The notes beneath the pieces were generated by a model. It was given only the letters and a program-made list of their open reading frames with translations, was not told the DNA's origin and searched no databases. Positions 3,509-33,087 of a stretch of DNA of 33,087 nt are shown here, in pieces. Where the stretch lies: contig JAVJQK010000078.1 in NCBI GenBank assembly GCA_040218145.1, positions 1 through 33,087 of the forward strand, given 5' to 3'. Position 1 is the first letter of the stretch. Each line of letters begins with the position of its first letter. The position numbers were made by a program, and so were the translations under genes. Origin of the DNA: Sandaracinaceae bacterium. Its GTDB lineage: Bacteria > Myxococcota_A > Polyangia > Polyangiales > Sandaracinaceae.

Positions 3509-3555
3509 GCGCCGGTCGAGACGATTTCTTGTGCTCCGGATCGGCCAGAGCGACA

Positions 3556-3723
3556 GTCAGCGAGCCGTCTCGACCGACTGGCACCGAGGGCTCGGCGCAC
3601 CAACGCCGGGCCCTCATTCATTCCGTCTCGACTTGCTCGCTAGGCTACGCCGCCTATCGGGAGAAGCCGCACTTCCCGCAGGGATCGCGTCCGATTCCTA
3701 CGTTTCCGCGCGACCGTCGACAC
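3556..3723. other. Short spacer between the IS element and the CRISPR trailer
   Basis: No convincing gene, promoter or partial repeat is seen. The stretch separates the presumed outer end of the IS21 element from the oldest CRISPR repeat. Reading frames here are fragments continuing from the array or the IS element. Confidence 0.5.
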
Positions 3724-5174: not shown

Positions 5175-5432
5175 GACCAGAAACGAGGCCGGTGCCGTTG
5201 CGAGCACAGACCCGGAACGCGGCGTGTGAAACCTCGCGCCAGGTCCGAGCACGATCGCGTTGACCATCTGGTAGGGAATGGCGTGGGTGCCCGCGGCGAC
5301 ATCGCCGAAGCCGGCGGTGATGAAGCGCAGCGTGCCCTCCTCGACGGTGAGCCGGCCGCGCCCGAGCCAGACGTGGCGGTCCCACTTCGGGATCTTCGCG
5401 CCGATGAGGCCCAGCCGCCCCTTGAAGATCAC
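5175..5432 (-). pseudogene. cas1: Frameshifted N-terminal remnant of cas1
   Basis: Starting with a GTG that overlaps the cas6e stop, the frame reads like the N-terminus of Cas1, the CRISPR integrase: WLGRGRLTVEEGTLRF, then IPYQMVNAIVLGPG. Near 5230 one base appears to be missing. The following homology (VSHAAFRVCARNGTGLV) continues in the next frame, which matches the conserved 'T.VSH.AL..CA..GTGLV' segment of the family. After about 86 codons all similarity stops; the C-terminal catalytic domain with its metal-binding Glu/His/Asp residues is absent. This is a dead gene. It marks the place where cas1-cas2 once followed cas6e and implies loss of local spacer acquisition. Confidence 0.85.
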
Positions 5433-10134: not shown

Positions 10135-12668
10135 TCCATCTTCTCCAATCCGAGCCGCGAGTACGAGAATCGCGCACCGGCCAGGGAGAACGTAAAGGCT
10201 CCCGACTCCGTTGCGTCTGGCTCGGGCTCGACCGCGGCTTCGTCGTCGAGCGAGAGGCCGTGGACCATCCAGTGCGTGAGCTTGAGTTCGGTGATGCGTT
10301 CCCCCAGCGCTGATCGGATCGGCGGTTCGAGCCCGATCCGTCGGTCGTCTTCTCCGAGACGCGTGGGCGTGCGGCGGTCTGACGGAAACCGCGTGTCGAC
10401 GACTGATTTTCTCCAGTCCAGCGCGTTGAGGCCGGCCAACCCCCGGTCCGCCAGCGCCCGCCCCACCACCGCTCGGGCGTGTCGCTCGAACGTCTCGTGC
10501 TGCTTCTCGATGCCCGAGAGCCGGGAGGGGTGGAGTGCACGCTCGACCAGCTCTCGGTTCGCGTCGGGGGTCCGAAACGCCAGTTGCGACTCGACGAGCC
10601 GCCAGGTGGTCTCCAACGCTCGAAGGTCCGGGTAGACGGTCCCGAGACCGTGGGGTCCTCGCGCGCTCCCGTCGGGTTGGACGAGCGGCGTGAGGTCTCG
10701 ACTTTCGGGGGTCAGTACTACCGCTCGTGCTCGCTCAAACCCGGGCGGGCGCGCACGAGCATGGCGGTGGAGCCGTCCCAGACGCTGGAGCAGCACGTCG
10801 ACCGGGCACAGATCGGTCATCAGCCAGTCGGCGCAGAGGTCGAGTGATTGCTGGACGGTCTGGGTTGCGACGGCCACGACCCCACCCGCGCTCGAGCCCT
10901 TGCCGATCGCCGCTTCGATCGCCGCGTCCAACCGAATCCGATCGGGTGTAGCGTAGCGGCTGTGGTGCGGCACCGGGACGCCACCGCACCGAAGCGAGAG
11001 CTCGGGCGCGACCGCCTCCAACGCCCGCTGCGTTTCCAGGCAGTCGCGAACGGTGTTGCGAATGACTAGGACCTTTGCCCCACGCCTCGCGGCGTCGCAA
11101 GCGCGACGAGCGATCTCCGTCGCGTCGTTCGCGATCGGGGTCGCTTCCCATCGGACATCCTTGGGCCGCCCCCCCTCGTTCGGGTACACGACGTGCTCGC
11201 CCGCGGGCTCGACAACGGAGACGCGGGGATAGCGCTCCTCGCTCGCCTCCTCGAACGCGGGGACCGGCAGCTTCAGGACGACCCTCGCGAGCGCGACGCG
11301 GGCTTCGCCCTCCAGCGTTGCGCTCATCAGCAGGGCGTGTCCCCCCGCGGCCACGTGCAGCGCCAGCACGTTCCGGAGCAGATACGTCATGTAGGTGTCG
11401 GAGGCGTGGACCTCGTCGACCACCAGCAGCTGCCGCGTGAGCGCGGTGATCCTCAGGTGTGCGTGTCCTGTCTGTAGCCCCCCCAGGAGGACTTGGTCGA
11501 TCGTGCCGACGACAATGGCGCCGGCGAGGTAGCGCTTGGGGTTCTCAGCTGCCCAGCCGCGGTAGCGCATTCGGCTCACCGGGTCGTCGTTCCACAGAAC
11601 CTCGAATCCCGGCAGGCGCTGGCCGACCTCGTCGTCGACCTGGAGGTAGCCCGGCACGGCGAGCACGACCGGGGGTGCGTCCTCGCCGTAGGTGCGCTGG
11701 ATGAGGCCTCGCATCCGGCGGAAGAGCTGCGTGGCCGCCGTCCGGGTCGGCAGCGCGAAGTACATACCGTCCACCTCGCCGGCGCGATGAAGGCCCAGGA
11801 AGCGCGCGAAAGCCGCCTCCGTCTTGCCCGAGCCGGTGTCCGACTCCAGGAACGTCAGCCCCGGTCCGGACCGCACGGGGAGATCGAGCACGGACCGCTG
11901 CATCGCGTTGGCCGCGAACCCCGCCGCGCGCGCGAAGTCGATGCCTTCGGACAGTCGAGAGCGCGCGAGCTCCGTCGCGATGCCGATCGCATCGAGCGCC
12001 CGGGCCGCCTGAGTCCGGGCGAACCCCAGCCGCGGAGGGTCGCCAGCTTCGCTATAGCGGAAGAAGCGGGTGTCCGAGCCCAGCCAGTCGGCAAGCATGA
12101 CGAGACCCGCGAAGCCGTGCTCCAGTGCGATCGCATCCGGCATTGGCGGGCCGTCCTCGAAGGCTCGCGGCACGAGTTCGCGTAGCCGCTCGAGGAAGTC
12201 CGCGAGACGCGAGAGGGGCTCACCCTCCCAGAGCGACTTGCACTCCGCGGTGGAAACGGCGGCCGGACGGCCATGGTGCGAGATCGCCGCGAACAGGAGG
12301 CCGTACGCAGCGTCACCCCAGGCCGCCAGCGGCGCGAGCACGGCCTGCCCCTCCGAGCTCTGGAGGAGCCAGCTCGCCTCATCCACATGTCCCGCCTGCG
12401 GGAAGCCACCAGTGCCCCTATTCTGGAAGCCCCGGTTCATCTTCCCGAGGTCGTGCAGTGCGGCGAGCACCACCAGCCGCGCCCGGTCGACCGGAGTCAA
12501 GCTCTCGCGCCGGGCCAGGCCTGAGAGACGTGCCCCGAGCAGCGACCGCTCGAGGAGCGCCTCGGCACATGCGGCTACGTCCAGGCAGTGGTCGACGAGC
12601 GGGTGCCACGCCACGGCGACACCTGCGTCGAGACGGAGCTTGCCCCAGACCCCCACTTCCCCCTCCAT
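10131..12668 (-). CDS. cas3: Cas3, HD nuclease-helicase of type I CRISPR interference
   Basis: An 845-aa single-chain Cas3 that nicks and degrades target DNA after recruitment by Cascade. The HD nuclease domain shows WHPLVDHC (His22, His27), the metal-binding HD at 72-73 (ALHDLGK), HHGR at 131-134 and D194 (LADWLGSD). The SF2 helicase follows with Walker A ESDTGSGKTE (275-284), DEVH box (418-421), SAT motif (449-451) and motif VI QRLGRLHRH. All key residues for both activities are present. It is the first gene of the minus-strand cas operon, so the operon promoter should lie just right of 12668. Downstream its stop overlaps cas8e. Confidence 0.97.
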   Translation of the reverse strand: MEGEVGVWGKLRLDAGVAVAWHPLVDHCLDVAACAEALLERSLLGARLSGLARRESLTPVDRARLVVLAALHDLGKMNRGFQNRGTGGFPQAGHVDEASWLLQSSEGQAVLAPLAAWGDAAYGLLFAAISHHGRPAAVSTAECKSLWEGEPLSRLADFLERLRELVPRAFEDGPPMPDAIALEHGFAGLVMLADWLGSDTRFFRYSEAGDPPRLGFARTQAARALDAIGIATELARSRLSEGIDFARAAGFAANAMQRSVLDLPVRSGPGLTFLESDTGSGKTEAAFARFLGLHRAGEVDGMYFALPTRTAATQLFRRMRGLIQRTYGEDAPPVVLAVPGYLQVDDEVGQRLPGFEVLWNDDPVSRMRYRGWAAENPKRYLAGAIVVGTIDQVLLGGLQTGHAHLRITALTRQLLVVDEVHASDTYMTYLLRNVLALHVAAGGHALLMSATLEGEARVALARVVLKLPVPAFEEASEERYPRVSVVEPAGEHVVYPNEGGRPKDVRWEATPIANDATEIARRACDAARRGAKVLVIRNTVRDCLETQRALEAVAPELSLRCGGVPVPHHSRYATPDRIRLDAAIEAAIGKGSSAGGVVAVATQTVQQSLDLCADWLMTDLCPVDVLLQRLGRLHRHARARPPGFERARAVVLTPESRDLTPLVQPDGSARGPHGLGTVYPDLRALETTWRLVESQLAFRTPDANRELVERALHPSRLSGIEKQHETFERHARAVVGRALADRGLAGLNALDWRKSVVDTRFPSDRRTPTRLGEDDRRIGLEPPIRSALGERITELKLTHWMVHGLSLDDEAAVEPEPDATESGAFTFSLAGARFSYSRLGLEKMD

Positions 12669-13949: not shown

Positions 13950-14960
13950 GTGGCGAAAGCGCTCGAAGAATCTGTCCGTGCACCCGCTCGCCGGGCCTTC
14001 CGCCTCATGGATGCGCTCCTGCGCCGCTCGAGGCTCACGGTTAGCGAGGCGCGGGATTTCACCTTGGTCGGACCGGCCCGAACGCGCACGATCATGAGGG
14101 ATCTTGTCGAGGAGGTTGGATGCGCGGAGCTCGCGCCGGGATCGCCCATGCGTGTGCGGCTCTCGGGAATCCGCCGTGGTGTCCCCTCGCACGAGATGGC
14201 GATCGCGGCGTGCTTCGCGGCAACCCTCGCCCCCCTGTTCGAAGGCACCAAGCTCGAGACGGGCATGAGGGAGGGGTTACGGTACGTCGTGGGCGCGAGC
14301 CCCCGGCCGGAGAAGTTCGATCACCTCGAGCGCAAGTTCTTTTTTGTGAGGGGTGGCGGTGAGCCGGCGCTTCCGGGCAACGCGAAGTTCCTCGAGCGCC
14401 TTGCGAAAGCGATTCTCGAACAGCGGAGCGTTGCGCTCACGCATCGCCGGTTTGACGCGGACGGTCCGTCCTCAAAGGCCACCTACCAGCCCCTCTCCAT
14501 CGCGATCTACGACCACCAACTCTACCTCCTCGGGAGGCGCGAATCAGACCAGGCGATCAGGTTGCTGCGATTCTCGCGCATCACCGGGGTGCGGGTTCTG
14601 CGGCGTACCTTCGACTACCCATCGGAGCTCGAGTTCAGCCCACGACAGCTTTTCGCGCAGTCGTTCGGGGTCTACCTGAAGGAGCAAAGCGAGCCCGCCG
14701 AGCCGGTGGAGATCCGTCTTCATCGACGCTGGGGCGGGTACGCGAGGGATCATCGCTGGCACCCGAGCCAATCGGTGGACGTCGGAGACGAGTACGTCAC
14801 GGTGCGTCTCACGGTTCGTCTGTGCCCCGAACTCGTGGGGTGGGTCCTGAGTTTCGGCGACGAGGCTGAGGTGATCTCACCGACGACGCTTCGGCGGGAT
14901 GTCGCGGGTCGCGTACAGAGACTCGCAGCCCTCTACCGTTCCCCGAGCAAGGGCAAATAG
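13950..14960 (+). CDS. WYL-domain transcriptional regulator
   Basis: A 336-aa protein with an N-terminal winged-helix-like domain (about residues 12-75), a WYL domain around 155-220 with the core YQPLSIAIYDHQLYLLGRRE, and a C-terminal WCX-type beta domain (about 252-330, VEIRLHRRW to LAALYRS). Such proteins bind DNA as dimers and respond to small ligands or nucleic acids; many control defence or CRISPR loci. The GTG at 13950 is the first start in the frame; Met20 is another option. The adjoining palindrome and the divergent small-gene pair are the obvious targets, while control of the cas operon 1.3 kb away is possible but unsupported. Confidence 0.9.
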   Translation: MAKALEESVRAPARRAFRLMDALLRRSRLTVSEARDFTLVGPARTRTIMRDLVEEVGCAELAPGSPMRVRLSGIRRGVPSHEMAIAACFAATLAPLFEGTKLETGMREGLRYVVGASPRPEKFDHLERKFFFVRGGGEPALPGNAKFLERLAKAILEQRSVALTHRRFDADGPSSKATYQPLSIAIYDHQLYLLGRRESDQAIRLLRFSRITGVRVLRRTFDYPSELEFSPRQLFAQSFGVYLKEQSEPAEPVEIRLHRRWGGYARDHRWHPSQSVDVGDEYVTVRLTVRLCPELVGWVLSFGDEAEVISPTTLRRDVAGRVQRLAALYRSPSKGK

Positions 14961-22402: not shown

Positions 22403-23275
22403 ATGGCCGAAGCGAGCACGAGCAGAGCAAATCAGGGGGGCGTCGAGGACGTGGCGACGGGCCCCGCGCTCGAGGAACTGCCGCTGGCGTGGGTCGAGGC
22501 GGATCCGAGCTGGAACTGCCGCGCGCCGTACGTCGAGGCCGAGGTGCAGGGCGCGGTGGAGCGCTATCGCCACGAGCCGATGCTTCATCCACCGTCGGTG
22601 GTGCGGCTCGGCGAGCGGCGATTCCAGCTCGTGACGGGGTTCCTGCGGTTCGAGGTGATGCGGCGGCTGGGCGACGAGCTCGGCTGGTTCCGGGTCGTCG
22701 AGGGCGACGAAGAGGACCGGCTGCTCTGGAACCTCGGGGAGAACACCGCGCGACGCGACCTGACCGGCTACGAGCTGGTGGAGCGGGTGTGGATGCTGTA
22801 CTCGCGGGGCGTGTCGAAACCGCGCCTGCTCCGCGCGTGCGGGTTCAAGATCCGCTACCTCAACCGACTGCTGTTCATCCGACGGCGGGCCCACCCCGAA
22901 CTCTACGAGGCGTTCCGAACGAACCCGTCGCTGTCGGTGGCGAGGATGGCGCGGCTGTGCACGCACGAGCCGGCCGAGCAGGTGGAGGAGTACCGCAAGA
23001 GCGAGGCTTGGCTCGCGCGAGCGGCGGAGGTCGAGCAGGGGTACGCGGAGCGACTCGATGCCGAAGGCGCTGACGGTGACGAGGGCGCCGAGGTGAGGCG
23101 CCCGAAGCGTCGCCGTCGGCGCCTGCCGAGCCGGGACCACGTCCGGCGCCTGCTCGCGGTGCACGAGAAGAGCGGTCATCTCGATCCGAACTACCGCCGC
23201 GGCGTCGTCGCCTCGCTCCGCCACCTGCTCTACGGCGAGCCGCTCCCAGAGCGCGCCTCCGCCAGCGGCGACTGA
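22403..23275 (+). CDS. ParB-like DNA-binding protein
   Basis: A 290-aa protein with a ParB/Srx-type N-terminal domain (about residues 25-120: LVTGFLRFEVMRRLG at 77-90 in place of the usual GxRR box, and LGENTARRDLTGYELVERV at 111-129) and a helix-turn-helix region (about 132-175, GVSKPRLLRACGFKIRYLNRL). The C-terminus is charged and Arg-rich. Typical ParB proteins bind centromere-like sites; here four copies of a palindromic motif lie immediately downstream, a likely target. No parA is seen in the window. GAGGGAGG precedes the ATG. It may control partition, replication or transcription of the element that follows. Confidence 0.85.
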   Translation: MAEASTSRANQGGVEDVATGPALEELPLAWVEADPSWNCRAPYVEAEVQGAVERYRHEPMLHPPSVVRLGERRFQLVTGFLRFEVMRRLGDELGWFRVVEGDEEDRLLWNLGENTARRDLTGYELVERVWMLYSRGVSKPRLLRACGFKIRYLNRLLFIRRRAHPELYEAFRTNPSLSVARMARLCTHEPAEQVEEYRKSEAWLARAAEVEQGYAERLDAEGADGDEGAEVRRPKRRRRRLPSRDHVRRLLAVHEKSGHLDPNYRRGVVASLRHLLYGEPLPERASASGD

Positions 23276-23312
23276 GCGGGCACTGCATCCCCCGGGCCCG
23301 GGCCAGCTGTTG

Positions 23313-23413
23313 GGTACGCAGTACCCGCGGCCTCGAGCTTGGTACGCAGTACCCGTCGGGCCTGCTGTCGGGGTACGCAGTACCTGCGGCTTCCGAGCTG
23401 GGTACGCAGTACC
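23313..23413. repeat. Four iterated palindromes GGTACGCAGTACC
   Basis: Copies start at 23313, 23341, 23372 and 23401. Each is a 5-bp inverted repeat (GGTAC/GTACC) around GCA, and all four are identical over 13 bp. Spacing of 28, 31 and 29 bp is close to three helical turns, placing the sites on one DNA face. Three of the four are followed by a similar 14-bp GC-rich stretch, so the unit is a degenerate tandem repeat. The position right after the ParB-like gene and before the gene block fits a centromere, iteron origin or operator. Confidence 0.85.
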
Positions 23414-23487
23414 CGCGACCTCGGGCCGAGTCCTCGCGCGAAACTTTTTTCACCGCGCCCGGCCTCCTCTGCGCCCTCGAAGGCTCG

Positions 23488-23547
23488 CTACAAGGGGCCT
23501 TGTAGGCGTCACAAGCGCTATAGGCTAGCGGTGGGTATGGCTTGTGA
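23488..23547. repeat. Nested inverted repeats upstream of the gene block
   Basis: CTACAAGG/CCTTGTAG (23488-23505, 2-bp loop) is followed by TCACAAGC (23509-23516) and its complement GCTTGTGA (23540-23547). All contain the half-site ACAAG/CTTGT. Together with the iterons this makes 23313-23547 the densest repeat zone in the window. The remainder to 23676 is comparatively AT-rich and should contain the promoter of the downstream block, but no promoter pair is clear. Confidence 0.6.
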
Positions 23548-23676
23548 GTCGTACCCGAAAAGTTGTTTGGTTTCGATGGGTTGACTCTCGTGGTTGCGTG
23601 GACATCGTCTCTCGGTCCACGGCCGAACCAGCGCGCAATCAAACGCGGTAGGTCGGCTCCACAACCGGGAGTTCAC

Positions 23677-24309
23677 ATGCGCCGAACCACCTCTCTGTCC
23701 CGCCGAGCGGGCACCAGCACTCTGGGCCGCGAGCTTCGCCAGGCGTCGCGCCGCGAGCTCGCGACGCTCAAGCGCGACCTGAAGGAGAAGCACCGCGACC
23801 GGATGAAGCGAGCGCGCACGAAGGACGCGCAGGAGCGCCGCAAGAAGCTGGTCCTCGCCGCGGTGGAGGTCAGCGGCACGGCGGCGGCGGCGGGGGCGGC
23901 CCGGGCGATGCTCGGTGACAAGCTCGACGTCGGGCCGGTGCCGCTCGAGCTTCCCCTCGCGATCGCAGGGCACGTCGTCGGCGGATACTTCTATCCCGAC
24001 GACGAGCGCGGCGACCACGTCCACAACATCTCGAACGGCATGATGGCCGTGGCGGCCTTCCAGGGCGCGCAGCGCATGACGGCCTGGGCGCGGGAGCGGA
24101 CGCGCCGCCGGGGTGGCTCCGAGGGGGCGTCGTCGCAGGGCTACGCCGGGGCGTACGCGGAGGCGCTGCCGCCGCCGCCGAGCTTCGCGCTGCCGCCGCC
24201 GCCCATGCCGCCGACCGAGGCGCCCCGCATCGCGGGCGCGGTCCCCACCGCCGCCGACCGCGCGATGGCCCAGGCCATCCGCGTGATGGAGGACGCGCGC
24301 CGCGGCTGA
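23677..24309 (+). CDS. 210-aa basic protein with hydrophobic centre, unknown
   Basis: The N-terminal 55 residues are very basic and helical (RELRQASRRELATLKRDLKEK). A hydrophobic middle (about 60-115) has two candidate membrane segments, around VLAAVEVSGTAAAAGAARAM and PLELPLAIAGHVVGGYFY. A Pro/Ala-rich part follows (PPPPSFALPPPPMPP) and then a short C-terminal helix. The layout fits a small membrane-associated structural protein, for instance of a particle with an internal membrane, but no family is recognised. The ATG at 23677 has CGGGAG upstream; the open frame extends further left without coding character. First gene of the plus-strand block, 69 bp before the coat-like gene. Confidence 0.7.
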   Translation: MRRTTSLSRRAGTSTLGRELRQASRRELATLKRDLKEKHRDRMKRARTKDAQERRKKLVLAAVEVSGTAAAAGAARAMLGDKLDVGPVPLELPLAIAGHVVGGYFYPDDERGDHVHNISNGMMAVAAFQGAQRMTAWARERTRRRGGSEGASSQGYAGAYAEALPPPPSFALPPPPMPPTEAPRIAGAVPTAADRAMAQAIRVMEDARRG

Positions 24310-24378
24310 GCCCGGCCGCTGCACCAACTCCGGCTCCGTCGTGAGCCCCCCTTTGGACCCCACACAGGAGAACGCCTC

Positions 24379-25377
24379 ATGTACGACCTGATCGGACTCG
24401 AGCCGGACGACCTCTACGACGACGAGGACATCCTCGCGGTCGCGGGGGAGGACGACCTCGACGACTACGACGACCTCGACGCCATCGCCGGGATGGACGG
24501 CCTCGACGACCTCGACGAGGAGGACCTCGACGCCATCGCCGGCGCGTTCGAGCTCGTCGGCCTCGATGACCTCGACGGCCTCGACGAGGAGGACCTCGAC
24601 GCCATCGCGGGCCTCGAAGACGACGACTACGACGACGACGAGTTCGCGGTGGCGGGCGAGGACTACGCGCTGCCCGGCAGCGTGGAGGAGCTGCTCGATG
24701 CGGGCGCGACGGCGGGCCGCCGGGTTCGGCGGCGCCTCTCGCGCTACGCGGGCCGTCGTCGGGGGCGCGGTCGGGTGCGCCGCCGCCCGAGGAGCCGCGC
24801 GGCCGTCCTGCGGGCGATCCGGGCTCGGCGGGCGCGGGCGCGCGCGCGTCGGACGACGACCCGGGCTCGGCGCGCGGTGCGGACGATGAGCCGCCGCGTG
24901 CAGCGCGAGCGGGCGAAGGCGCGCCAGGCGGTGCGCGTGGCTCGGGCGGTGGCCGCGCGGACGGCGCCGCGGCCGGCGCGCACCATCCCGAGCGTGACCG
25001 GCGGTCAGACGCAGGTCGTGCCGACGCAGCCGCAGAAGAGCGGACCGCAGGTCGTGCCCTTCACGGCGACGGGCCCCATCGCGCCGGGGGAGACGCGCGT
25101 GCTGACGGCGCGCCCGCAGGTGGTCTTCCGCCCGAACCAGTTCCAGGTGGCCGGCCGCATCGCGGAGTACTTCCGCATCAACGCGATTCGGATCGGCAAC
25201 CAGAACCAGTTCGCGGCGAGCGGCTCGGTGCCGGCGGAGGCCTTCAGTGGCAACCACCCGATGCCGATCGGCAACACGACCGCGCACCCCGGTCACGACA
25301 TCGCGATCGAGGTCACGAACATCAGCGCCTCGCCGCAGGACTTCTCCGCGGCGATGAGCGGGCCCGCGCTCCAGTAG
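24379..25377 (+). CDS. Candidate coat-like protein: acidic repeat, Arg-rich middle, beta-rich C-terminus
   Basis: A 332-aa protein of three contrasting parts. Residues 10-97 are strongly acidic, with five copies of a short hydrophobic motif of the type LDAIAG between Asp/Glu runs. Residues 113-205 are extremely Arg-rich, like a nucleic-acid-condensing segment. Residues 246-332 form a beta-rich domain (FRPNQFQVAGRIAEYFRINA, IRIGNQNQF, SVPAEAFSG, DIAIEVTNISASP). The last part is the only one that looks like a globular fold and could be a single jelly-roll shell domain; this is inference, from predicted strands and a vague memory of similar proteins in phage-like clusters. A strong AGGAG site and a following hairpin suggest high expression. 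Confidence 0.7.
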   Translation: MYDLIGLEPDDLYDDEDILAVAGEDDLDDYDDLDAIAGMDGLDDLDEEDLDAIAGAFELVGLDDLDGLDEEDLDAIAGLEDDDYDDDEFAVAGEDYALPGSVEELLDAGATAGRRVRRRLSRYAGRRRGRGRVRRRPRSRAAVLRAIRARRARARARRTTTRARRAVRTMSRRVQRERAKARQAVRVARAVAARTAPRPARTIPSVTGGQTQVVPTQPQKSGPQVVPFTATGPIAPGETRVLTARPQVVFRPNQFQVAGRIAEYFRINAIRIGNQNQFAASGSVPAEAFSGNHPMPIGNTTAHPGHDIAIEVTNISASPQDFSAAMSGPALQ

Positions 25378-25405
25378 CGCGTCCGGGCTCCGCGAGCGCT
25401 TCCCT

Positions 25406-25468
25406 GGTCGCCCTCCGCCTCGCGCGGACGGCCCTCCCCCAGTCCCGCCCGCCGGGCGGAGGGCGACC
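25406..25468. terminator. 14-bp inverted repeat after the coat-like gene
   Basis: Arms GGTCGCCCTCCGCC (25406-25419) and its exact complement (25455-25468) enclose a 35-nt GC-rich loop and are followed by CCTTTCTGTG. A stable hairpin 30 bp after the stop could end or attenuate transcription, making the upstream gene more abundant than the rest, or protect its mRNA end. Confidence 0.6.
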
Positions 25469-25516
25469 CCTTTCTGTGTCTCGAGCTTCCCCTCTCTGAC
25501 CGAGCCGACCGAACCG

Positions 25517-25981
25517 ATGCCGCTTCCCTCCCACACCGAGAGCGCGCCCATCGCCAACCCCGACGAGGTCGAGGGTGGTCTCGCCGAGCGCCTGTGGTGC
25601 GTGACCTTCGGGGCGTACGGCGCGACACACGTCTACGCGTGGGCCGACTCGCTCGAGGACGCGTTTGAGGTGGCGGTGGAGCACCTCGACGACGAGGGGC
25701 AGTGCGGGCACTTCACGATCCTCACCGAGGACGACTACGTCGAGGCGGCCGAGGAGCTCGGCGTCGAGTGGGACCCCGAGTCGCCGGACTACGCGGTGAT
25801 GGAGCACGCCGAGGCGGATCTGACGCCGATCGGCTGGACGACGCTCGAGTGCGCGCGGAGCGGCGGCGGCTCGGCGTTCGTGCCGTCGTGGGAGTGGTCG
25901 GTGCGCGAGGTTCACGGGGCCGAGCGCCAGCGCGTCGAGGAGCGCTCGTACGAAGAGATCGAAGCGGAGGAGGTCGCGTGA
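25517..25981 (+). CDS. 154-aa acidic protein, unknown
   Basis: A soluble acidic protein with a likely alpha/beta fold: the strand-helix unit LWCVTFGAYGATHVYAWADSLEDAFEVAVEHL, a Cys/His pair in DDEGQCGHFTIL, and a C-terminal helix rich in Glu. No membrane helix or signal peptide. I recognise no family. Its stop overlaps the start of the transglutaminase-like gene (TGATG), so the products are probably made in step and may work together. It is the first gene after the hairpin. Confidence 0.7.
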   Translation: MPLPSHTESAPIANPDEVEGGLAERLWCVTFGAYGATHVYAWADSLEDAFEVAVEHLDDEGQCGHFTILTEDDYVEAAEELGVEWDPESPDYAVMEHAEADLTPIGWTTLECARSGGGSAFVPSWEWSVREVHGAERQRVEERSYEEIEAEEVA

Positions 25982-26421
25982 TGCGGCAGGTCAGTTTTCG
26001 TTTGCGTCTGTTCCAGAGCGAGCGCGAGCGCGCCTCGAGCGAGCGGATCCTGCGCGTGCTGTTGCGCGCGCTGGCCGCCGCCGACGTCGAATACCTGCGG
26101 GCGCACCCAAACACGCCGCCGCTCTACCAGGCGGGGGTGCGCTACCGAGCCGAGCGGGTGCCGCGCGAGTTCTGGAAGGGCGTCGCCGAGACGCTCGAGG
26201 ATCGCCACGGCGACTGCGAGGACCTGGCGTGCTGGCGGTGCGCGGAGCTGATCGTCCGTGATCGCGTCGCCGCCGAGCCGGTGTTTCGCTACCGCCGCGT
26301 CGGGCGGCTGAGCGTCTACCACATCCTCGTTCGCTACCCGGACGGCCGCATCGAGGACCCGTCGGCGCTGCTCGGAATGGGCGCGGGCGGGGCGACTCGG
26401 AGGCAGCTCGGGCTCGGCTGA
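25981..26421 (+). CDS. Transglutaminase-like cysteine protein
   Basis: A 146-aa protein with a papain/transglutaminase-type triad: Cys79 in HGDCEDLACWRCAEL, His114 in YHILVRYPDG and Asp126 in IEDPS, in the right order and spacing for the superfamily. It is smaller than typical transglutaminases and has no signal peptide. In structural gene clusters such a fold could act as a peptidase or amide-bond-forming enzyme on proteins or peptidoglycan peptides. It is coupled to the gene upstream and followed by a peptidoglycan-binding protein. The ATG overlapping the previous stop is the natural start. Confidence 0.8.
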   Translation: MRQVSFRLRLFQSERERASSERILRVLLRALAAADVEYLRAHPNTPPLYQAGVRYRAERVPREFWKGVAETLEDRHGDCEDLACWRCAELIVRDRVAAEPVFRYRRVGRLSVYHILVRYPDGRIEDPSALLGMGAGGATRRQLGLG

Positions 26422-26506
26422 GATCTTCACGACGAGCGCGCTCGCGCGCGGCGCTCGGACCCATCGATCCGCGAAGCAGCGGGCGCGCGAAGGAAGGGAG
26501 ACGACC

Positions 26507-27667
26507 ATGGGAGCGATCGCCGCACTGCTGGCCCTCGGGGGCATCGTCGCGTTGGCGGCCTACTCGGCGGGCAACGAAGAGGCGCGTCCCTCGTCGGGGC
26601 GCCCTCCTGCCGGAGCGCCGCCGTCGCTCCCGCCTCCACCCGGGTCGCCGAGCGGTTCGCCCGCGGGCACGAGCCCCGCCCCGGCCGCGTCGCCGAGCCC
26701 GAGGCCGACGAGCCACGCGCCGGAGGGGGCCGATCCCTACGCCGCGACGCCGGTCCCCGCGCACTGTCCGCCCGGGCTCGACCGGGCGGACCCGACCGCG
26801 CGATCCCTCTGTGGCCCGGGCGGAGGCGCCGCAGACCCGTCGGCGCCGGTGGTGCCCACGTCGACGGCCACAAACGCCCCGCCCGATCTCGTCGAGCGCG
26901 TGCGCGCGTTCATGGCGTCCGATCCCAGCCCGGAGCAGATCGAGGAGCTCGCGACGCAGCTCGATCGCGCCGGCCTGTCGGACGCGGCGCGGCAGCTGCG
27001 CGGGGTCGCCGCGGCTCGTCGTCAGGAGCGCGCGCGAGCGCCCTCCACTCCAACGCCCGCGCCGGGCCCTTCGTCGCCGGCGAGGAGCGACTCGAGGACC
27101 CCCGGGCCCTCGTCCTCGTCGGCTACCGATACGGGCAGCTCGTCGAGGCCCGGCGGCGGCGGCGAGCCGCAGAGCGGGCGGCAGCTCGCCGTCGAGACCG
27201 CGGGCGCGCTGCGCGATCGGCTGAGCGTGCTGCAACGGCTGACGAGGGAGTTCCAGGAGGCGGCGAACATCGCGGGGGACGGCCTCTACGGGCCGATGAC
27301 GCGGGCGGCGTTGACCTACTGGAGCGGCCGGACGGCGCCGCGGCCGTGGGTGGGCTCGGGGAGCCCGAGGTATCGCGGGCTGGTGTCGGTCGAACGGGGC
27401 GACGGCACCCCGGCGGCCGAGCACGCCGAGCGGACGGCGCGCGCGCTGTTCCGGGCGCTGCTCGATCCGGAGGGACCGGCGAAGCCGATCCTCGAGCGGT
27501 TCCAGCGGACCGTCGGGCTGACGGTCGACGGCAAGTACGGCTCGCAGACGCGCGCCGCGCTCGGACGGCTCGGCGTGGCGAACCCGCCGAAGGCGTTCCG
27601 GCGCACGCGGCGCCGCGCGAGCAGGGGGAGCGGCGGCGGAGGCTCCTCGAGACGGCGTTCGGGCTGA
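26507..27667 (+). CDS. Membrane-anchored protein with two peptidoglycan-binding repeats
   Basis: A 386-aa protein. An N-terminal hydrophobic helix (residues 2-20, AIAALLALGGIVALAAY) is probably an uncleaved anchor. A long Pro/Ser-rich linker (25-125) and a helical segment (about 128-170) follow. Then come two PG_binding_1-like units with the signature D.LYG..TRAAL near residues 255-270 (GDGLYGPMTRAAL) and DGKYGSQTRAAL near 340-355. The C-terminus is Arg/Gly-rich. These repeats bind the cell wall, so the protein likely bridges a membrane and peptidoglycan, as in spike, entry or lysis components. AAGGGAG precedes the ATG. Confidence 0.82.
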   Translation: MGAIAALLALGGIVALAAYSAGNEEARPSSGRPPAGAPPSLPPPPGSPSGSPAGTSPAPAASPSPRPTSHAPEGADPYAATPVPAHCPPGLDRADPTARSLCGPGGGAADPSAPVVPTSTATNAPPDLVERVRAFMASDPSPEQIEELATQLDRAGLSDAARQLRGVAAARRQERARAPSTPTPAPGPSSPARSDSRTPGPSSSSATDTGSSSRPGGGGEPQSGRQLAVETAGALRDRLSVLQRLTREFQEAANIAGDGLYGPMTRAALTYWSGRTAPRPWVGSGSPRYRGLVSVERGDGTPAAEHAERTARALFRALLDPEGPAKPILERFQRTVGLTVDGKYGSQTRAALGRLGVANPPKAFRRTRRRASRGSGGGGSSRRRSG

Positions 27668-27703
27668 GCGCCGACAGGGTCGCGTACGACAACGGAGAGG
27701 ACG

Positions 27704-28609
27704 ATGAACCAGCACTACCTCGATGACCTGAACGGGCTGCCCGTGACCTCGGGCGGTGAGTACGATCCCGAAGCCGGCGCCTCGTGGGGCGCGAGCGCCG
27801 GGTGCGGCTCGCGCGCCGTGGCGAGCGGCGCCTCGGGCGAGGACGGCGGCGCGCTGAGCGGCGACGTGGTCGAGCGCGTGCGCGTGGGGCCGTACACGGC
27901 GAGCGTCCAGCTCGAGCGTCGCGACGGAGGCCTATGGATCGCCTGCGCGATGATCGAGACCGAGAGGGGCGTAATGAGCTGGTGCGGCGCCGCGACCGAG
28001 CAGGAGGTCGCGCAGCGGCTCGCGGCGCGTCGCCGCGAGGGCGCGAGCGCGGGCTTCGACTTCGGGAGCTTCCTCAACGACATCGGCCGTCAGATCAATC
28101 AGGGCGCGCAGCAGCTCGCGCGCAACCGGACGCTGCGCCGGGTCGTGCGCGACGTGAACCGCACCCTGAACCGGCCCGAGCTGCAGCCGGTGCTCGCGGT
28201 GGCGCAGCAGATCCCCTACCTGGGTCAGGCGCTCGGCGCGGTGCGCGCGGCGGCGACGATGGCCGACCAGGTGCTGGGCGGTAACCCCCAGGCGCGCGGC
28301 CGTCTCCAGTCGATCCGGCGCGCGGCGCAGCGCGGCAACCCCATCGCGCGCCAAGCGCTCGAGGTGCTTGGCGACGTGCTCCGCGCGCAGCAGCGCTCGG
28401 TGCGCCAGCGGGCGGGCGCGCCAGCTCGACGTCGTCCGGGCCGCCGCCCGCCTTCGCGCCGGCGCCACGGCAGCTCGCCGCGCCGCCGGCCTCGTCACGA
28501 CGCGCGCTCGAGCGGCTCCGAGGCGGAGGAGCGGGCCTGGCGCGCCGCCTCGGAGCGATGGGCCGAGCACACCCGCCGCTCGATCGTCACGCCGCCCCCG
28601 GTCGGCTGA
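27704..28609 (+). CDS. 301-aa protein with Arg-rich C-terminus, unknown
   Basis: Three parts are visible: an acidic Gly/Ser-rich N-terminus (1-50), a small beta segment (VRVGPYTASVQLERRDGGLWIACAMIE), and a long helical region (about 120-230) with moderately hydrophobic stretches such as VLAVAQQIPYLGQALGAVRAA. The end (about 235-280) is almost pure Arg/Pro/Ser. Like the coat-like protein it combines acidic and very basic segments, suggesting nucleic-acid packaging or an internal structural role. No known domain is recognised. The ATG has GGAGAGG upstream and follows the previous gene by 36 bp. Confidence 0.7.
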   Translation: MNQHYLDDLNGLPVTSGGEYDPEAGASWGASAGCGSRAVASGASGEDGGALSGDVVERVRVGPYTASVQLERRDGGLWIACAMIETERGVMSWCGAATEQEVAQRLAARRREGASAGFDFGSFLNDIGRQINQGAQQLARNRTLRRVVRDVNRTLNRPELQPVLAVAQQIPYLGQALGAVRAAATMADQVLGGNPQARGRLQSIRRAAQRGNPIARQALEVLGDVLRAQQRSVRQRAGAPARRRPGRRPPSRRRHGSSPRRRPRHDARSSGSEAEERAWRAASERWAEHTRRSIVTPPPVG

Positions 28610-28651
28610 CAGTCGGCTGAGCCCGCCCCCTTGTCCAAGGAGCCCTCGACG

Positions 28652-29365
28652 ATGACCGACGCACCGCCCTCTCCTTCCACCGCACGCGGTGAGCACGATT
28701 CGCTGCGCGCGCTCCTGCGGGGCGTGGTGGACCTCATTCACCGCGGCCTCCACGAGCTGGAGGCGCACGGACCCGAGCCGTCCGATGCCTCGACGGAGGA
28801 ATCCACGACGCCCACCGGCGGCGGCGACGGACCGACTCCGGGCGCGGAGCCGCCCGCGCCGAACCCTCCCGACATCTCGGATCCCAACGAGCCAGCGACC
28901 CCCCTACCCACCCCACCCACCACGGAGCCCACGATGCCCATCGGAACGAGAAACTTCGCCTTCGCCCACGCTCGGATCACCAGCGACGGGGAGGAGGTGC
29001 GGGTCAGCAAGGCGACCGGCTTCACGCCGGCGATCACCCACCCGAACGACCCCGATCCGGCGCACTGCGCGCCGCGCGACGACCTGCCGAAGGTCGCGCG
29101 GGTGCGGCCCAGCGACCCGGACAAGCTGCCGCCGAACACGCTGCTCTACCGGCTGACGTTCCCGGAGAACCACCAGATCGACCGCGACGAGGCGGTGGTG
29201 ATTGCCAGCGGCGCCGACCGCGAGACGCACAGCGCCTACGACATGAACGCGTGGCCGGTGAACGACCGCGCCATCGAGGTCGCGCTCGAGCTGCGTCGCC
29301 CGGACGTCAACGGCGAGCGCAAGGACGTCTTCACGGTCGACGTCCTGGTGCTGCGGGTCGACTGA
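28652..29365 (+). CDS. 237-aa protein with disordered N-terminus and beta-rich C-terminus
   Basis: Residues 1-94 are Pro/Glu/Thr-rich low complexity after a short helix (SLRALLRGVVDLIHRGLHEL). Residues 95-237 look like a beta domain (NFAFAHARITSDGEEVRVS, LLYRLTFPENHQIDRDEAVVI, FTVDVLVLRVD). An internal ATG at 28934 (MPIGTRNF) has a GGAG site and would yield just the beta domain, so two products are possible. No family is recognised. AAGGAG lies 10 nt before the chosen start. It is followed within 8 bp by another beta-rich protein gene, which suggests a pair of shell or spike subunits (inference). Confidence 0.7.
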   Translation: MTDAPPSPSTARGEHDSLRALLRGVVDLIHRGLHELEAHGPEPSDASTEESTTPTGGGDGPTPGAEPPAPNPPDISDPNEPATPLPTPPTTEPTMPIGTRNFAFAHARITSDGEEVRVSKATGFTPAITHPNDPDPAHCAPRDDLPKVARVRPSDPDKLPPNTLLYRLTFPENHQIDRDEAVVIASGADRETHSAYDMNAWPVNDRAIEVALELRRPDVNGERKDVFTVDVLVLRVD

Positions 29366-29372
29366 GGGAGTG

Positions 29373-30062
29373 ATGGGCGAGCCGCGGCAACTGCTCGACT
29401 GCCCCGACCGGAGCAACCTGGGGCGCCGACTGACGCTCCAGCCGGCCGGGGCCTTCGAGGCGCTGCTCGACGTGCGCGGCGAGGACGCCGCGGCTCGCGC
29501 CGTCACCACCACGATCACGCTCGCGCCAAAGGTCTCGTTCGAGAGCCTGGGGCCCGATGATCTGCTCGCCCGCCGCGACGAGCTGCGCGCGCGCGCCCGG
29601 ATCGAGGCGGGCGTGGGCGGCCACGTCGCCACCATCGAGCTCGACGTGGGCGCGGGCCTCCGCTTCGGCGCCGCGGTGTCGTCGCTGCGCGTCTCGGCCA
29701 TCAACGACGGCGGCGCGCCGATCGACGTGGGCGCCTTCGTCGGGTACGGCACGGCCGCGACGACGCCGACGCTGACCACGTACGGAGGCCCGCTGTCGTT
29801 CCGAGAGACGTGGGAGCTCGACGTGCCGGCGTTCGCGCAGGCGGTCGAGATCCTGCGCCCGCCGGGTCACGAGCTGCTCGTCGACGTCGGCCTCGGGCGC
29901 GCTCGTGGCGTGGCCGGGCGCTGGCTCTACGGCGACCGCGTCTTCTTCGACGAGCGGATGAGGCCGCTGCCGCTCGCCAACGGCTGCCGGCGCGTCCGCG
30001 TCACCTCGCTCGCGACCGGCCGCAGCTTCCAGCCGGTCGCCCTGTTCACCCTCACCCTCTGA
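29373..30062 (+). CDS. 229-aa beta-rich protein, candidate structural subunit
   Basis: Almost entirely predicted beta structure, with alternating hydrophobic strands: ARARIEAGVGGHVATIELDV, SSLRVSAINDGGAPIDVGAF, SFRETWELDVPAFAQAVEIL and a C-terminal SFQPVALFTLTL. No signal peptide, membrane helix or catalytic motif is present. Length and composition would suit a single jelly-roll capsid or penton-type protein, but I cannot confirm the fold from sequence alone. The ATG at 29373 has GAGGGAG just upstream, giving tight spacing; the GTG one codon earlier is an alternative. It follows the previous gene by 7 bp. Confidence 0.68.
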   Translation: MGEPRQLLDCPDRSNLGRRLTLQPAGAFEALLDVRGEDAAARAVTTTITLAPKVSFESLGPDDLLARRDELRARARIEAGVGGHVATIELDVGAGLRFGAAVSSLRVSAINDGGAPIDVGAFVGYGTAATTPTLTTYGGPLSFRETWELDVPAFAQAVEILRPPGHELLVDVGLGRARGVAGRWLYGDRVFFDERMRPLPLANGCRRVRVTSLATGRSFQPVALFTLTL

Positions 30063-30078
30063 CGAACGAGCCGAGCTC

Positions 30079-30552
30079 ATGAGCGAAACGTCTCCCGAGA
30101 CCCCGGCGTCCGACGAGCCGCCCGCGTCGGCCATCACGGCGCCCGGCGCGGCGGCGGCCGTGCCCCAGGAGCAGCTCGATCGCGCGGTCGCGCTGCTCCT
30201 CCACGCGATGCAGCTCCGCAACTACGTCGAGCTGCACCGGGGGCGGCTGCCGGCCGACCTCGTGCGCCGCTGGGACGAGTGGTACCGGGGGCTCGCCGAG
30301 GTCTTCCAGCGCGTGCAGGCCGACTCGATCGCGCAGCGCCAGGTCTTGGCTCAGCTCCCCACTTACCAGGCCGAGCTGACCCGCTATCGCGACGCGCTCG
30401 CGGCGCACGGCGCTCCAGCCCAGGGGTCACCGCCACTCGACGCGGCGGCCTCGCGCGAGCCGCGCCGATCGCTCTCGCCGCTGCTCATCGGCGGCGCCGG
30501 GCTCGCGGTCGGGCTGGTGGCGGGCTTCGCGGTCGCGGGGAGCCGGAGCTGA
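30079..30552 (+). CDS. 157-aa tail-anchored membrane protein, unknown
   Basis: A soluble helical region (about residues 28-115, with PQEQLDRAVALLLHAMQLRNYVELH and a conserved-looking DEWYRGLAEVF) is followed by a linker and one C-terminal membrane helix (LLIGGAGLAVGLVAGFAVAG) ending five residues from the stop. This tail-anchored topology recurs in several proteins of this block and suggests components of a common membrane. No known family. Start ATG at 30079, 16 bp after the previous stop; the site GAGCCGAGC is weak. Confidence 0.7.
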   Translation: MSETSPETPASDEPPASAITAPGAAAAVPQEQLDRAVALLLHAMQLRNYVELHRGRLPADLVRRWDEWYRGLAEVFQRVQADSIAQRQVLAQLPTYQAELTRYRDALAAHGAPAQGSPPLDAAASREPRRSLSPLLIGGAGLAVGLVAGFAVAGSRS

Positions 30553-30555
30553 GCC

Positions 30556-30783
30556 GTGGGCCACTCGCTCGAGGACGCGTTCGTCGCCCACCTCTCCAAG
30601 GGTGGCCTGCTCGTCATCCACCCGAAGCATGGGGTGCAGCTGGTCACGAGCGTCGAGCGGGCGGTGCGCTGGCTCGAGCGAGACGGCTGGGACTACTTCG
30701 TCACCCACCAGAACAGCGACACCGGCGACGAGCTCGAGCAGTGGATCCCGCTTCACGACCCGCGGTGGGAGGACGACGAGTGA
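30556..30783 (+). CDS. 75-aa small soluble protein, unknown
   Basis: A compact protein with a strand-strand-helix pattern (GLLVIHPKHGVQLVTSVERAVRWLERDGWDYFV) and an acidic tail. No motif is recognised. It starts with GTG three bases after the previous stop and has the third-position G/C bias of its neighbours, so it is likely real and translated by coupling. The role is unknown; the position between two membrane proteins suggests a scaffold or adaptor, without direct evidence. Confidence 0.62.
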   Translation: MGHSLEDAFVAHLSKGGLLVIHPKHGVQLVTSVERAVRWLERDGWDYFVTHQNSDTGDELEQWIPLHDPRWEDDE

Positions 30784-30829
30784 CGCGCGCGGGGCCGAGC
30801 GCTCTCGCGCGGACGAACGGAGGACGTCG

Positions 30830-31675
30830 ATGACCGACTCGAACCCCCAGGCGGCGAGCGCGCCGCTGCCTATGCCCGGCGCGCGTGTCACGAGCCCGTC
30901 GGGCTGGCGCGCCCGGCCCGGCGGCCGACGCGAGTGGCACGAGGGCGCGGATCTGCGCGCCGCGGTCGGCACCCCCGTCCTCGCGACGCGCGCGGGCGTG
31001 GTGCACGACGCGCTGCCGGAGACGGCGCGAGGGATCCGCGGCTACGGGAACCTCGTCGTCCTGTGGCACCCGCAGGACGGCGTCTACACGGCGTACGCGC
31101 ACCTCTCGGAGATGCTCGTCGCGCGCGGGGATCGAGTCGAAGCGGGGGCGGTGATCGCGGCGACCGGCGTCACGAGCGGCGGCCGACACCCGCGGATGTG
31201 TCCGCACCTGCACTTCGCCGTGCGCCGGCCGAGGAGCGACGGCCGCGCGCCGTGGCCGGGCGCCTACCCGCACCCCGAACGCGCGCCCTGGGCGCACCGT
31301 TCGTACTGGGTCGACCCGAACGAGTACCTGCGCGGCTTCGGGCTCGAGGCGGCGACGACGCGAGGCGCGGGCGAGCTCCGCATCCGTCCCTCCTCGGCGG
31401 CGGACGCGGGCGGCGGGCGGCCCTACCCGCCGCGTTGCCCGCGGCGCTCTGCGGTCGTGCTCGCGGGGGCGGAGCTGCCGCCGCGCGGCGCGCCTGCCGA
31501 GCGACCGCTCGCCGTCGCGCCTCCCCCCGAGCAGGGCGCCGCTGTGCCGCCGCCGACGCGATCGAGCGATCGTGGCGGCTGCCCGAGCGAAGGGAGCTGC
31601 TGGCCGTTCGCGATGCTCGTCGGGGCGGCGGGCTTCACGGCCGCGGCGCTCGCGTCGAAGGGGCGCCCCCGATGA
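30830..31675 (+). CDS. M23 (LytM-like) peptidoglycan endopeptidase with C-terminal anchor
   Basis: A 281-aa zinc metallopeptidase that cuts peptidoglycan cross-bridges. The metal ligands are visible: His37 and Asp41 (HEGAD), then His126-Leu-His128 (CPHLHFAV), with His91 in AYAHLSEM as the usual additional conserved His. The peptidase occupies residues 15-175. A Pro/Arg-rich linker with Cys residues leads to a hydrophobic helix close to the C-terminus (CWPFAMLVGAAGFTAAALAS), placing the enzyme on a membrane with no signal peptide. In this context it may open the cell wall during entry or exit of a particle. GGAGG precedes the ATG. Confidence 0.88.
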   Translation: MTDSNPQAASAPLPMPGARVTSPSGWRARPGGRREWHEGADLRAAVGTPVLATRAGVVHDALPETARGIRGYGNLVVLWHPQDGVYTAYAHLSEMLVARGDRVEAGAVIAATGVTSGGRHPRMCPHLHFAVRRPRSDGRAPWPGAYPHPERAPWAHRSYWVDPNEYLRGFGLEAATTRGAGELRIRPSSAADAGGGRPYPPRCPRRSAVVLAGAELPPRGAPAERPLAVAPPPEQGAAVPPPTRSSDRGGCPSEGSCWPFAMLVGAAGFTAAALASKGRPR

Positions 31676-32367
31676 CCGCCCGCCAGCGCTTCGAGGCGAT
31701 CGTCGCGAGCGTGCGCCTCCTCGACGCTGCGGTCGCGCGGTCCGGGCTCGACGAGGGGGAGCGCGTGCGCTGGCGAGAACTGGTCGCGTACGCCGCCGCG
31801 CTCGGTCGAGCGCTCGAGCGGCTCGACGACGCCGCCGCGCGAAGCCGTCATGTCGATCACTTCGAGGGCCTCGTCACCCGCTGGCGCGAGGCCCTCACCG
31901 CGTGGGGCGTGCTGGACGCGGGTGAGACCGCGACCGCCGGCTTCGACGGCTTCATCAGCCCGGGTCGCGCGCGGGCTCGCATGGACAGCGTTCACGCGGA
32001 GGTCGCGAACCTCGACCGGCTGGTCCGAGACCACAAGCATCAGCTCGGGCGCGGCTTCGTGTCCGGCTGGGAGCGTTGGCGCGACTCGTGGCGGCAGTTC
32101 TACGCGCGCTACCCGCGCGAGTGGGACTGGTGGTACCTCGGCAACGCCTCGGCCTGGAACGAGACGCTCGTCTTTCAACAGCGGCTCGCGCAGTACGCCG
32201 AGGCCGTTCAACGCGCCGGGGTGCGCGGGCGCCTGCCGGCTCCGGCGCCACCGCCCGAGCGAGAGGGCAGCGGCGACTGGCTCGGGAGCGCGAGCACCAT
32301 CGCCGTCGCGGGCGCCGTCGGCGCCGCGGTCCTCGGGACCGTCTACCTCGTCAGCCGGGTCGCGTGA
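31672..32367 (+). CDS. 231-aa helical tail-anchored membrane protein, unknown
   Basis: Mostly alpha-helical and charged (residues 1-190), with a Trp/Tyr-rich block near the middle (WERWRDSWRQFYARYPREWDWWYLGN, here cited in short: positions about 130-155), then a linker and a single C-terminal helix (IAVAGAVGAAVLGTVYLVS). The coupling on both sides (ATGA with the M23 gene, TGATG with the next gene) suggests strict co-production. The aromatic block could bind membrane or wall. No known family is recognised. The topology parallels the 157-aa and M23 proteins of the block. Confidence 0.72.
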   Translation: MTARQRFEAIVASVRLLDAAVARSGLDEGERVRWRELVAYAAALGRALERLDDAAARSRHVDHFEGLVTRWREALTAWGVLDAGETATAGFDGFISPGRARARMDSVHAEVANLDRLVRDHKHQLGRGFVSGWERWRDSWRQFYARYPREWDWWYLGNASAWNETLVFQQRLAQYAEAVQRAGVRGRLPAPAPPPEREGSGDWLGSASTIAVAGAVGAAVLGTVYLVSRVA

Positions 32368-32621
32368 TGACGAGGTCGCGAGGCGAACAGCGGGGCCAAG
32401 ATGTCTACGAGCTGCCGACGCCCTCGCCTGTCGGCGAAGCGGTCGTCGAGGGGGAGCTCGTCGAGGACTCGCCGCCGACGCGTGAGCGGAGCGGCGCGGA
32501 CCGGGTCGTGGCCGTCGCGATGGCGGTGACCGTGACCGGGGTCGCGGTGGTCAGCCTCCTGAACTTCCTCAGCAGCGATCCCGAGCCCGGCGACAACCGA
32601 AGGAAGGGGAGACGTCGATGA
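32367..32621 (+). CDS. 84-aa single-helix membrane protein, unknown
   Basis: A small protein with an acidic N-terminal half, one membrane helix (VVAVAMAVTVTGVAVVSLLNF, about residues 47-67) and a basic tail rich in Lys/Arg. Both ends overlap neighbours by start-stop coupling (TGATG before, ATGA after). The size and topology resemble minor membrane proteins of membrane-containing viruses or holin-like proteins, but there is only one helix and no further evidence. Confidence 0.68.
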   Translation: MTRSRGEQRGQDVYELPTPSPVGEAVVEGELVEDSPPTRERSGADRVVAVAMAVTVTGVAVVSLLNFLSSDPEPGDNRRKGRRR

Positions 32622-33087
32622 GCCACGCCGACCGGAACACCCGAAAGCTCCACCACTGGCTCATCCGCATGGCCGGTGACGGCGGCGGGCGCGTCTCGCT
32701 CGGGCACCTCAGCGCGACCGGGCCGGGCGTGCCGCTCGGGCAGTGGGCGGTGCGTCACGAGGACGAGGACGCGGCGCTGAGGCAGCTCGCCGAATCCATC
32801 GTCTGCGCTGCGGCCGACGACGCCGACGGCCAAGCCGGCGGCACGCCGCAGCAGTACGTCGCGCTCTTCTACGCGGAGGACGCGCCCGATCAGCCGGCGA
32901 GCCGGCTGCCCTTCCGGCTGTCCCAGGCGGAGCAGTTCGCGCCCGAGGGCAGCGCCCTCGCGACCGAGCCGCCCACCGAGAAGGGGCTCGTCGCCCAGGC
33001 CATCCGCCACAACGAGTTCCTCGTCCGCACCTCGTTCGGCGCGATGGGCTCGGCCGCCTCGCAGCTCGAGCGTCACAACCACATGCT
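32618..33087 (+). CDS. Unknown protein, 3' end outside window
   Basis: At least 156 residues, open to the right edge. The start ATG (32618) overlaps the preceding stop, with AAGGAAGGGGAG upstream. The readable part is soluble and mixed: KLHHWLIRMAGDGGG, an acidic stretch, QYVALFYAEDAPDQ, a predicted strand FRLSQAEQF, then a helix beginning EKGLVAQAIRHNEFLVR that continues past the edge. No domain is recognised. It continues the same operon, so the block extends beyond this window. Confidence 0.75.
   Translation, partial: MSHADRNTRKLHHWLIRMAGDGGGRVSLGHLSATGPGVPLGQWAVRHEDEDAALRQLAESIVCAAADDADGQAGGTPQQYVALFYAEDAPDQPASRLPFRLSQAEQFAPEGSALATEPPTEKGLVAQAIRHNEFLVRTSFGAMGSAASQLERHNHM

Follow-up and report, generated by a model that had tools for sequence, protein, structure and literature searches.

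A conserved, mobile gene block of Myxococcota that may belong to a tail-less virus

Introduction

What kind of entity is encoded by a run of co-directional genes that combines wall-degrading enzymes, beta-rich proteins and small membrane proteins? The question is raised by contig JAVJQK010000078.1 of a Sandaracinaceae bacterium belonging to the Myxococcota, which are soil predator bacteria. The window analyzed here is this one complete contig (33,087 bp; G000:C78) of an 11.06-Mb genome, and 15 plus-strand genes (p1 to p15) were called at 22403-33085. Because the window is the whole contig and ends there, the block is cut inside gene 15, which runs off the contig end. A sequence-only reading had proposed a non-tailed, membrane-associated virus-like element. 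The analysis places the block in a hitherto undescribed family of mobile, virus-like elements that is spread across Myxococcota and may be a kind of tail-less virus; no description of the element was found in the open-access literature, preprints and subscription papers being outside the scope of that search. On balance, it is somewhat more probable than not that the block represents the late module (particle and passage through the envelope) of a virus-like element that lacks a tail and is probably membrane-associated.

Conservation and mobility of the gene block

Regarding conservation, the same-family genome G002 (JAUHXR010000076) carries p3 to p15 collinearly at 50-95% amino-acid identity. 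The ratio of nonsynonymous to synonymous substitution rates (dN/dS) against G002 for ten genes extends from 0.11, for the transglutaminase-like enzyme p5 (TG) and the C-terminal domain of p3 (p3-C), to 0.51, the highest values belonging to the tail-anchored proteins, indicating purifying selection. Since G002 keeps the order at this identity and with these ratios, the block genes are genuine and under selection rather than a product of chance. The order p2-p3-TG-...-p9-...-M23-...-p15 recurs in pSa001, a 209.7-kb plasmid of Sandaracinus sp. MSr10575, in several Myxococcota metagenome-assembled genomes (MAGs) and, in part, in two IMG/VR contigs. Whole or partial blocks of this kind, designated group A, are found in MAG contigs L025, L026, L027, L028, L029 and L031, and G395 carries the same order within about 20 kb beginning with a tyrosine recombinase. 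In pSa001 the block measures about 14 kb, is bounded by a ParB-like gene and ParA, and is annotated as hypothetical proteins except for the M23, peptidoglycan-binding, regulator and ParA genes. The pSa001 counterparts of p3, p9 and the M23 protein are WP_206607019, WP_206607014 and WP_206607013, respectively. ParA forms the far end of the element in G002 and L029 as well. Downstream of the block, G002 and L026 carry GIY-YIG-like, RadA/Sms-like, DUF3560 and further plasmid- or phage-type genes, whereas the pSa001 block lacks the RadA, GIY-YIG and DUF3560 genes. Among 57 relatives, five gave a match to p9, that in G024 being spurious; a TG match in L033 was likewise rejected as spurious.

More distant copies (group B) were reached with a TG profile, which was positive in 35 of 379 Myxococcota genomes, with up to nine copies in one genome. 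Where an examined TG locus extends far enough, p2 almost always precedes TG, and in several cases matches of p3 or p9 type fall in between. Homology between the two groups was detected by hhalign for p2 (prob 98.7, E 3e-16) and p9 (prob 93.2, E 3e-7; negative control 0.06). No homology was found by this method between type-A p15 and type-B F6, nor between the two p3 types; therefore, these equivalences are drawn from gene position and architecture, backed in the case of p3 by weak matches of hidden Markov models (HMMs). The group-B p3-like protein consists of acidic repeats, a basic stretch and a beta domain. In twelve group-B loci the gene order is nearly constant: F4-F5-F6, usually encoded on the other strand, is followed by p2, p3-like, p9-like, beta and TG-like genes, then basic, membrane, F2 and small membrane proteins, a methylase-helicase of 1.7 thousand amino acids, a membrane-anchored GH46-like hydrolase, a GHKL-like protein and often a serine recombinase.

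The elements carrying the block are mobile. The distant copies lie in elements of ~20-24 kb whose insertion sites are unrelated and which also encode ParA/ParB, a primase, a DarB-like methylase-helicase and recombinases of serine or tyrosine type. In a copy-to-copy comparison the similarity extends over about 20.7 kb and then ends in differing flanks, from which the mobility of the group-B loci follows. A serine recombinase accompanies the element in G071, G251, G185, G136, G266 and G402, and a tyrosine recombinase in G395; thus a recombinase together with variable insertion sites, as in integrative elements, is seen in the relatives, the window itself being cut by the contig end. Regarding spread to Gammaproteobacteria, one Chromatiales MAG contig, possibly mis-binned, was positive, against none of 368 others. 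As a separate observation, group-B elements adjoin heavy-metal efflux genes (CusABC/CopA-like) in G185:C3, G251:C252 and G071:C44.

Predicted structures of p3 and p9

AlphaFold, supplied with a 12-sequence alignment, predicts p3-C as a beta-sandwich, likely of jelly-roll type, with a predicted local distance difference test score (pLDDT) of 86.3. The solved folds closest to it, with Z of about 8, are those of PHM, an HHIV-2 chain (Z 8.2) and SPV1 chain 6oj0_A, after which come the nanovirus coat, VP17 of P23-77, nucleoplasmins and GOLD domains; HCIV-1 is also weaker than HHIV-2. HHIV-2 is an archaeal virus that contains a membrane. For p9, two beta domains are predicted (pLDDT 73), the first half resembling GOLD domains, the turret protein of STIV and PRD1 P5; p9 is probably a jelly-roll-type beta-sandwich. 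No double-jelly-roll (DJR) capsid was among the matches listed for p9, which had no Pfam or PHROG match either. As p3-C and the N-terminal half of p9 reach Z about 8 with viral and unrelated folds alike, the predicted fold of p3-C is not diagnostic of a capsid.

Organization of the block

The features of the block are collected in Table 1. The gene content described by the sequence-only reading was confirmed: about fourteen co-directional genes with start-stop overlaps had been noted, and 15 were called, with overlaps of 1-4 nt at 25981, 31672/31675, 32367 and 32618/32621. The protein with acidic, Arg-rich and beta-rich parts (p3), two further beta-rich proteins (p8 and p9), the peptidoglycan-binding and M23 proteins and five proteins with a single terminal hydrophobic helix (p6 at the N-terminus, p10, the M23 protein, p13 and p14) were all recovered. 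For the ParB-like gene with repeats, the repeats were confirmed and the ParB-like match proved weak. Pfam recognized nothing in the block beyond the peptidoglycan-binding domain and the M23 peptidase, and the PHROG scan, which covered the first ten genes, returned a marginal ParB-like match for p1 and endolysin-type matches for p6.

Table 1. Genes and repeats of the block in the window
Feature	Position	Strand	Description	Basis
p1	22403..23275	+	ParB-like / winged helix-turn-helix regulator, opens block	PHROG ParB-like E 0.03; similarly sized and placed gene in pSa001 (WP_206607021)
Repeats	23306..23415	+	palindrome GGTACGCAGTACC in four copies, spaced 28-31 bp apart; parS- or operator-like	exact-copy search
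p2	23677..24309	+	conserved, hydrophobic core, upstream of p3	HMM matches in almost all relatives
p3	24379..25377	+	acidic repeats, Arg-rich part and C-terminal beta domain; main candidate coat protein	sequence, AlphaFold
p4	25517..25981	+	acidic protein, function not assigned	82% identity in G002; also in L025
p5 (TG)	25981..26421	+	transglutaminase-like cysteine enzyme, Cys79-His114-Asp126	residue conservation; weak LapG-type PDB match E 0.15
p6	26507..27667	+	N-terminal membrane anchor and peptidoglycan-binding domain	PF01471 (PG_binding_1) 9e-8
p7	27704..28609	+	amphipathic/basic protein	kept in most close relatives
p8	28652..29365	+	Pro-rich N-terminus, beta-rich C-terminus	sequence, relatives
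p9	29373..30062	+	beta-rich, two predicted beta domains; second coat/turret candidate	structure prediction, distant-group homology
p10	30079..30552	+	helical, C-terminal membrane helix	hydrophobic-helix analysis
p11	30556..30783	+	small acidic protein	60% identity in G002
p12	30830..31675	+	M23 peptidase, C-terminal membrane helix	PF01551 3.2e-22
p13	31672..32367	+	helical, C-terminal membrane helix	in pSa001 fused to M23 protein
p14	32367..32621	+	small membrane protein	relatives, hydrophobic-helix analysis
p15	32618..33085	+	coiled-coil protein, cut by contig end (G002 version 318 aa)	homologues in G057, pSa001, L026, L028, L031

The transglutaminase-like assignment of p5 also stood, although no Pfam match was found at E 0.1: Cys79, His114 and Asp126 are invariant across the four closest homologues, and in a ten-homologue set Cys79 and Asp126 are present in 10/10 and His114 in 90% or more. 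The idea that TG cuts hydrophobic-Gly-acidic repeats of p3 and p7 was rejected, as these repeats are, with one exception, not above composition-shuffled proteins; a likeness of TG to a gene of a Geoglobus pleomorphic virus (E 5e-3, 39 aa) was too weak to be used. The palindrome GGTACGCAGTACC lies between p1 and p2, its four copies spanning 101 bp within about 140 bp downstream of p1. No other exact copies exist in the 11-Mb genome, a pattern that would suit a centromere or operator recognized by the ParB-like protein.

Several neighbouring features were observed. The left half of the window resembles ordinary chromosomal-type sequence. Positions 1-2797 contain a fragment of an IS3-type transposase, at the edge of the contig, and an istA/istB pair resembling IS21; L026, too, has an IS21-like pair upstream of its block. 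A type I-E-like locus of clustered regularly interspaced short palindromic repeats (CRISPR-Cas; 3724-4850 and 5429-12668) contains an array of 19 repeats with a 28-nt core repeat and 32-nt spacers, and beside it lies a WYL-domain-like regulator (14007-14960). In L028 a similar-looking regulator (3072-4121) immediately precedes the block, with a 20-nt repeat between the regulator and p2.

Virus-classified contigs

Two IMG/VR contigs, both of which may be genome fragments, carry parts of the block. On G057 (194 kb), p2, p3 and TG keep their order and p15 is present, together with five matches to p3-type domains, 38 tRNAs, RtcB and helicases, including a Dda-like one. G402 (106 kb) combines a group-B-like module with a serine recombinase, DNA polymerase, ribonucleotide reductase, primase and a DarB-like protein. 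Terminase_6N was detected in neither of these possibly fragmentary contigs and phrog_2 was absent from G057; likewise, no portal, tail or HK97 capsid was among the PHROG matches listed for them, in lists of up to 25 families. Searches of viral and phage collections with p3 and p9 gave no new loci beyond G057.

In G057 the tRNA genes are packed in about 9 kb (L046 10990-19790), with a PTH2-like peptidyl-tRNA hydrolase gene near them. Many small proteins of this contig (L047, L034, L059, L060) share the N-terminal motif MAYDLL/MAIDLL or MNREEK, which may be a virion targeting signal. A 633-aa protein at 90083-91987 (L057 4084-5988) has the look of a transposase/TnpB-type nuclease, with one PHROG transposase match.

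Evaluation of the viral interpretation

The gene set fits a particle that crosses the Gram-negative envelope, as it comprises shell-type beta proteins, tail-anchored proteins and membrane-tethered wall enzymes. In the proposed mechanism, p3, with its Arg-rich, putatively DNA-binding part and jelly-roll domain, would form a shell with the beta proteins p8 and p9, and the TG-like enzyme may cross-link or process p3. The proteins p6, p10, M23, p13 and p14 would reside in a host-derived membrane and breach the wall as the particle enters or leaves; wall-binding or wall-cutting, membrane-anchored proteins recur across the variants read, as M23, lysozyme/GH46-like and LysM proteins. The ParB-like regulator may act on the palindromic repeats to control maintenance or induction. 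DarB is carried in P1 virions, and in the distant relatives the DarB-like protein may similarly accompany the DNA and block restriction.

Tailed-phage hallmarks (terminase, portal, tail, HK97 capsid) were not detected in the window block by Pfam or by the PHROG scan of its first ten genes, in agreement with the sequence-only reading. The checks it proposed gave mixed results. The same gene order was indeed found at different sites, namely a plasmid, MAGs and IMG/VR contigs, with unrelated flanks and multiple copies. Extension to the right was stopped by the contig end, which comes before any replication gene, and the relatives supplied recombinases and a primase but no HerA/FtsK ATPase. The predicted folds were of jelly-roll type for p3-C and probably for p9, without a capsid-specific match. 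Hence the non-tailed, mobile and virus-like parts of the proposal stand, whereas its packaging ATPase was not found and the capsid fold matches are unspecific. Folds other than jelly-rolls, together with a gene order fixed at a single site without mobility genes, would have refuted the sequence-only reading; instead, the block is mobile and p3-C is predicted to be jelly-roll-like.

Several results weigh against a viral nature. No known capsid protein was identified in the block by Pfam or, in its first ten genes, by PHROG. Foldseek searches of p3-C against the PDB gave E 0.013 or worse, capsids scoring no better than unrelated jelly-rolls, and the best target in a viral structure library (E 2e-4) is an uncharacterised protein. 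PF01580, representing FtsK/HerA-type packaging ATPases, was found in neither G402 nor G057. A collection of 50,697 phage records gave no match save one short, weak one, and the CRISPR spacers of the window align to the elements with 7 or more mismatches, like shuffled spacers. Moreover, G057 encodes the virion protein phrog_1645, which is common to cyanophages and HMO-2011, so that G057 may be a tailed jumbo phage.

This last contig gives rise to the best-surviving alternative, namely that large tailed phages carry the block as an accessory (for internal head, injected or lysis proteins) and that smaller mobile elements have captured it; these elements would be satellites or domesticated remnants borrowing the capsid and motor of a helper. 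The co-occurrence of p2-p3-TG and p15 with 38 tRNAs and phrog_1645 in G057 would be explained in this way, as would the failure to find an own motor in the elements; however, no terminase was detected in the possibly fragmentary G057 and G402, the PHROG matches listed include no tail or portal family, and the block, which brings its own wall enzymes along with several membrane proteins and two or three proteins rich in beta structure, exceeds the needs of a cargo. We regard this explanation as unlikely, though worth keeping in view.

Less likely still is an envelope-spanning, conjugation-like apparatus for DNA transfer or secretion on integrative elements or plasmids of Myxococcota. Soluble jelly-roll-type beta proteins are no hallmark of conjugation, and pSa001 is typed as non-mobilizable, against which stand the membrane-anchored wall enzymes, the plasmid and integrative context, ParA/ParB, and the DarB-like antirestriction and DUF3560 proteins, which are common in plasmids too. 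A Walker-A scan of the neighbourhoods combined with Pfam yielded RadA-like, primase/helicase, SNF2 or flank ATPases only, with no FtsK/HerA or VirB4/TraD-type enzyme, and Pfam scans of selected element genes yielded no relaxase. A structure of the host itself, serving the myxobacterial envelope, sporulation or predation, to which the chromosomal-type left half of the window and the wall-binding and wall-cutting domains might point, is largely refuted and very improbable, as most relatives lack the block, a genome can contain up to nine copies, and the block occurs on plasmid and virus-classified contigs with adjoining recombinases and differing flanks.

Returning to the virus-like element, a bolder proposal is that it represents a founding lineage of non-tailed, membrane-associated bacterial viruses, whose members would range from integrated or plasmid-like forms of ~14-24 kb to genomes of 100-200 kb, with a new small Arg-rich jelly-roll coat protein and with DNA packaging that involves no recognisable terminase or HerA/FtsK motor. 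This is put forward tentatively, as rather less than an even prospect. If particles are made, a widespread, unreported group of Myxococcota viruses would exist, its marker being present in 35/379 sampled genomes. Such a group would connect small plasmid-like elements with viral genomes of more than 100 kb, and its DNA would have to be packaged by a mechanism distinct from both main motors known so far. Packaging ATPases are also missing from the Odin and FLiP groups (PMC5894146).

Comparison with known systems

Jumbo tailed phages are approached by G057 through its tRNA cluster, RtcB, Dda-like helicase and phrog_1645; they differ in that G057 has no detected terminase and the window block no tail module. 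The DJR tailless viruses of the Tectiliviricetes (PRD1, Bam35, PM2, Odin group) have a similar size range, with genomes of roughly 7-18 kb beside about 14-24 kb for the elements, and share with them several small membrane proteins, wall-degrading enzymes and temperate or plasmid-like members. The Odin group resembles the elements further in lacking a packaging ATPase and carrying ParB-family nucleases (PMC5894146). A third comparison concerns the Sphaerolipoviridae, Simuloviridae and Matsushitaviridae, which have two single-jelly-roll capsid proteins and an internal membrane. The element differs from them in having no detected sequence similarity or packaging ATPase, and its fold score is not above that of unrelated jelly-rolls. 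Simuloviridae include temperate replicons of 16-19 kb (PMC12642351). Within this assemblage, p3-C matches a chain of HHIV-2 and, more weakly, HCIV-1 and P23-77 VP17, and the element likewise encodes two or more small beta proteins beside its membrane proteins.

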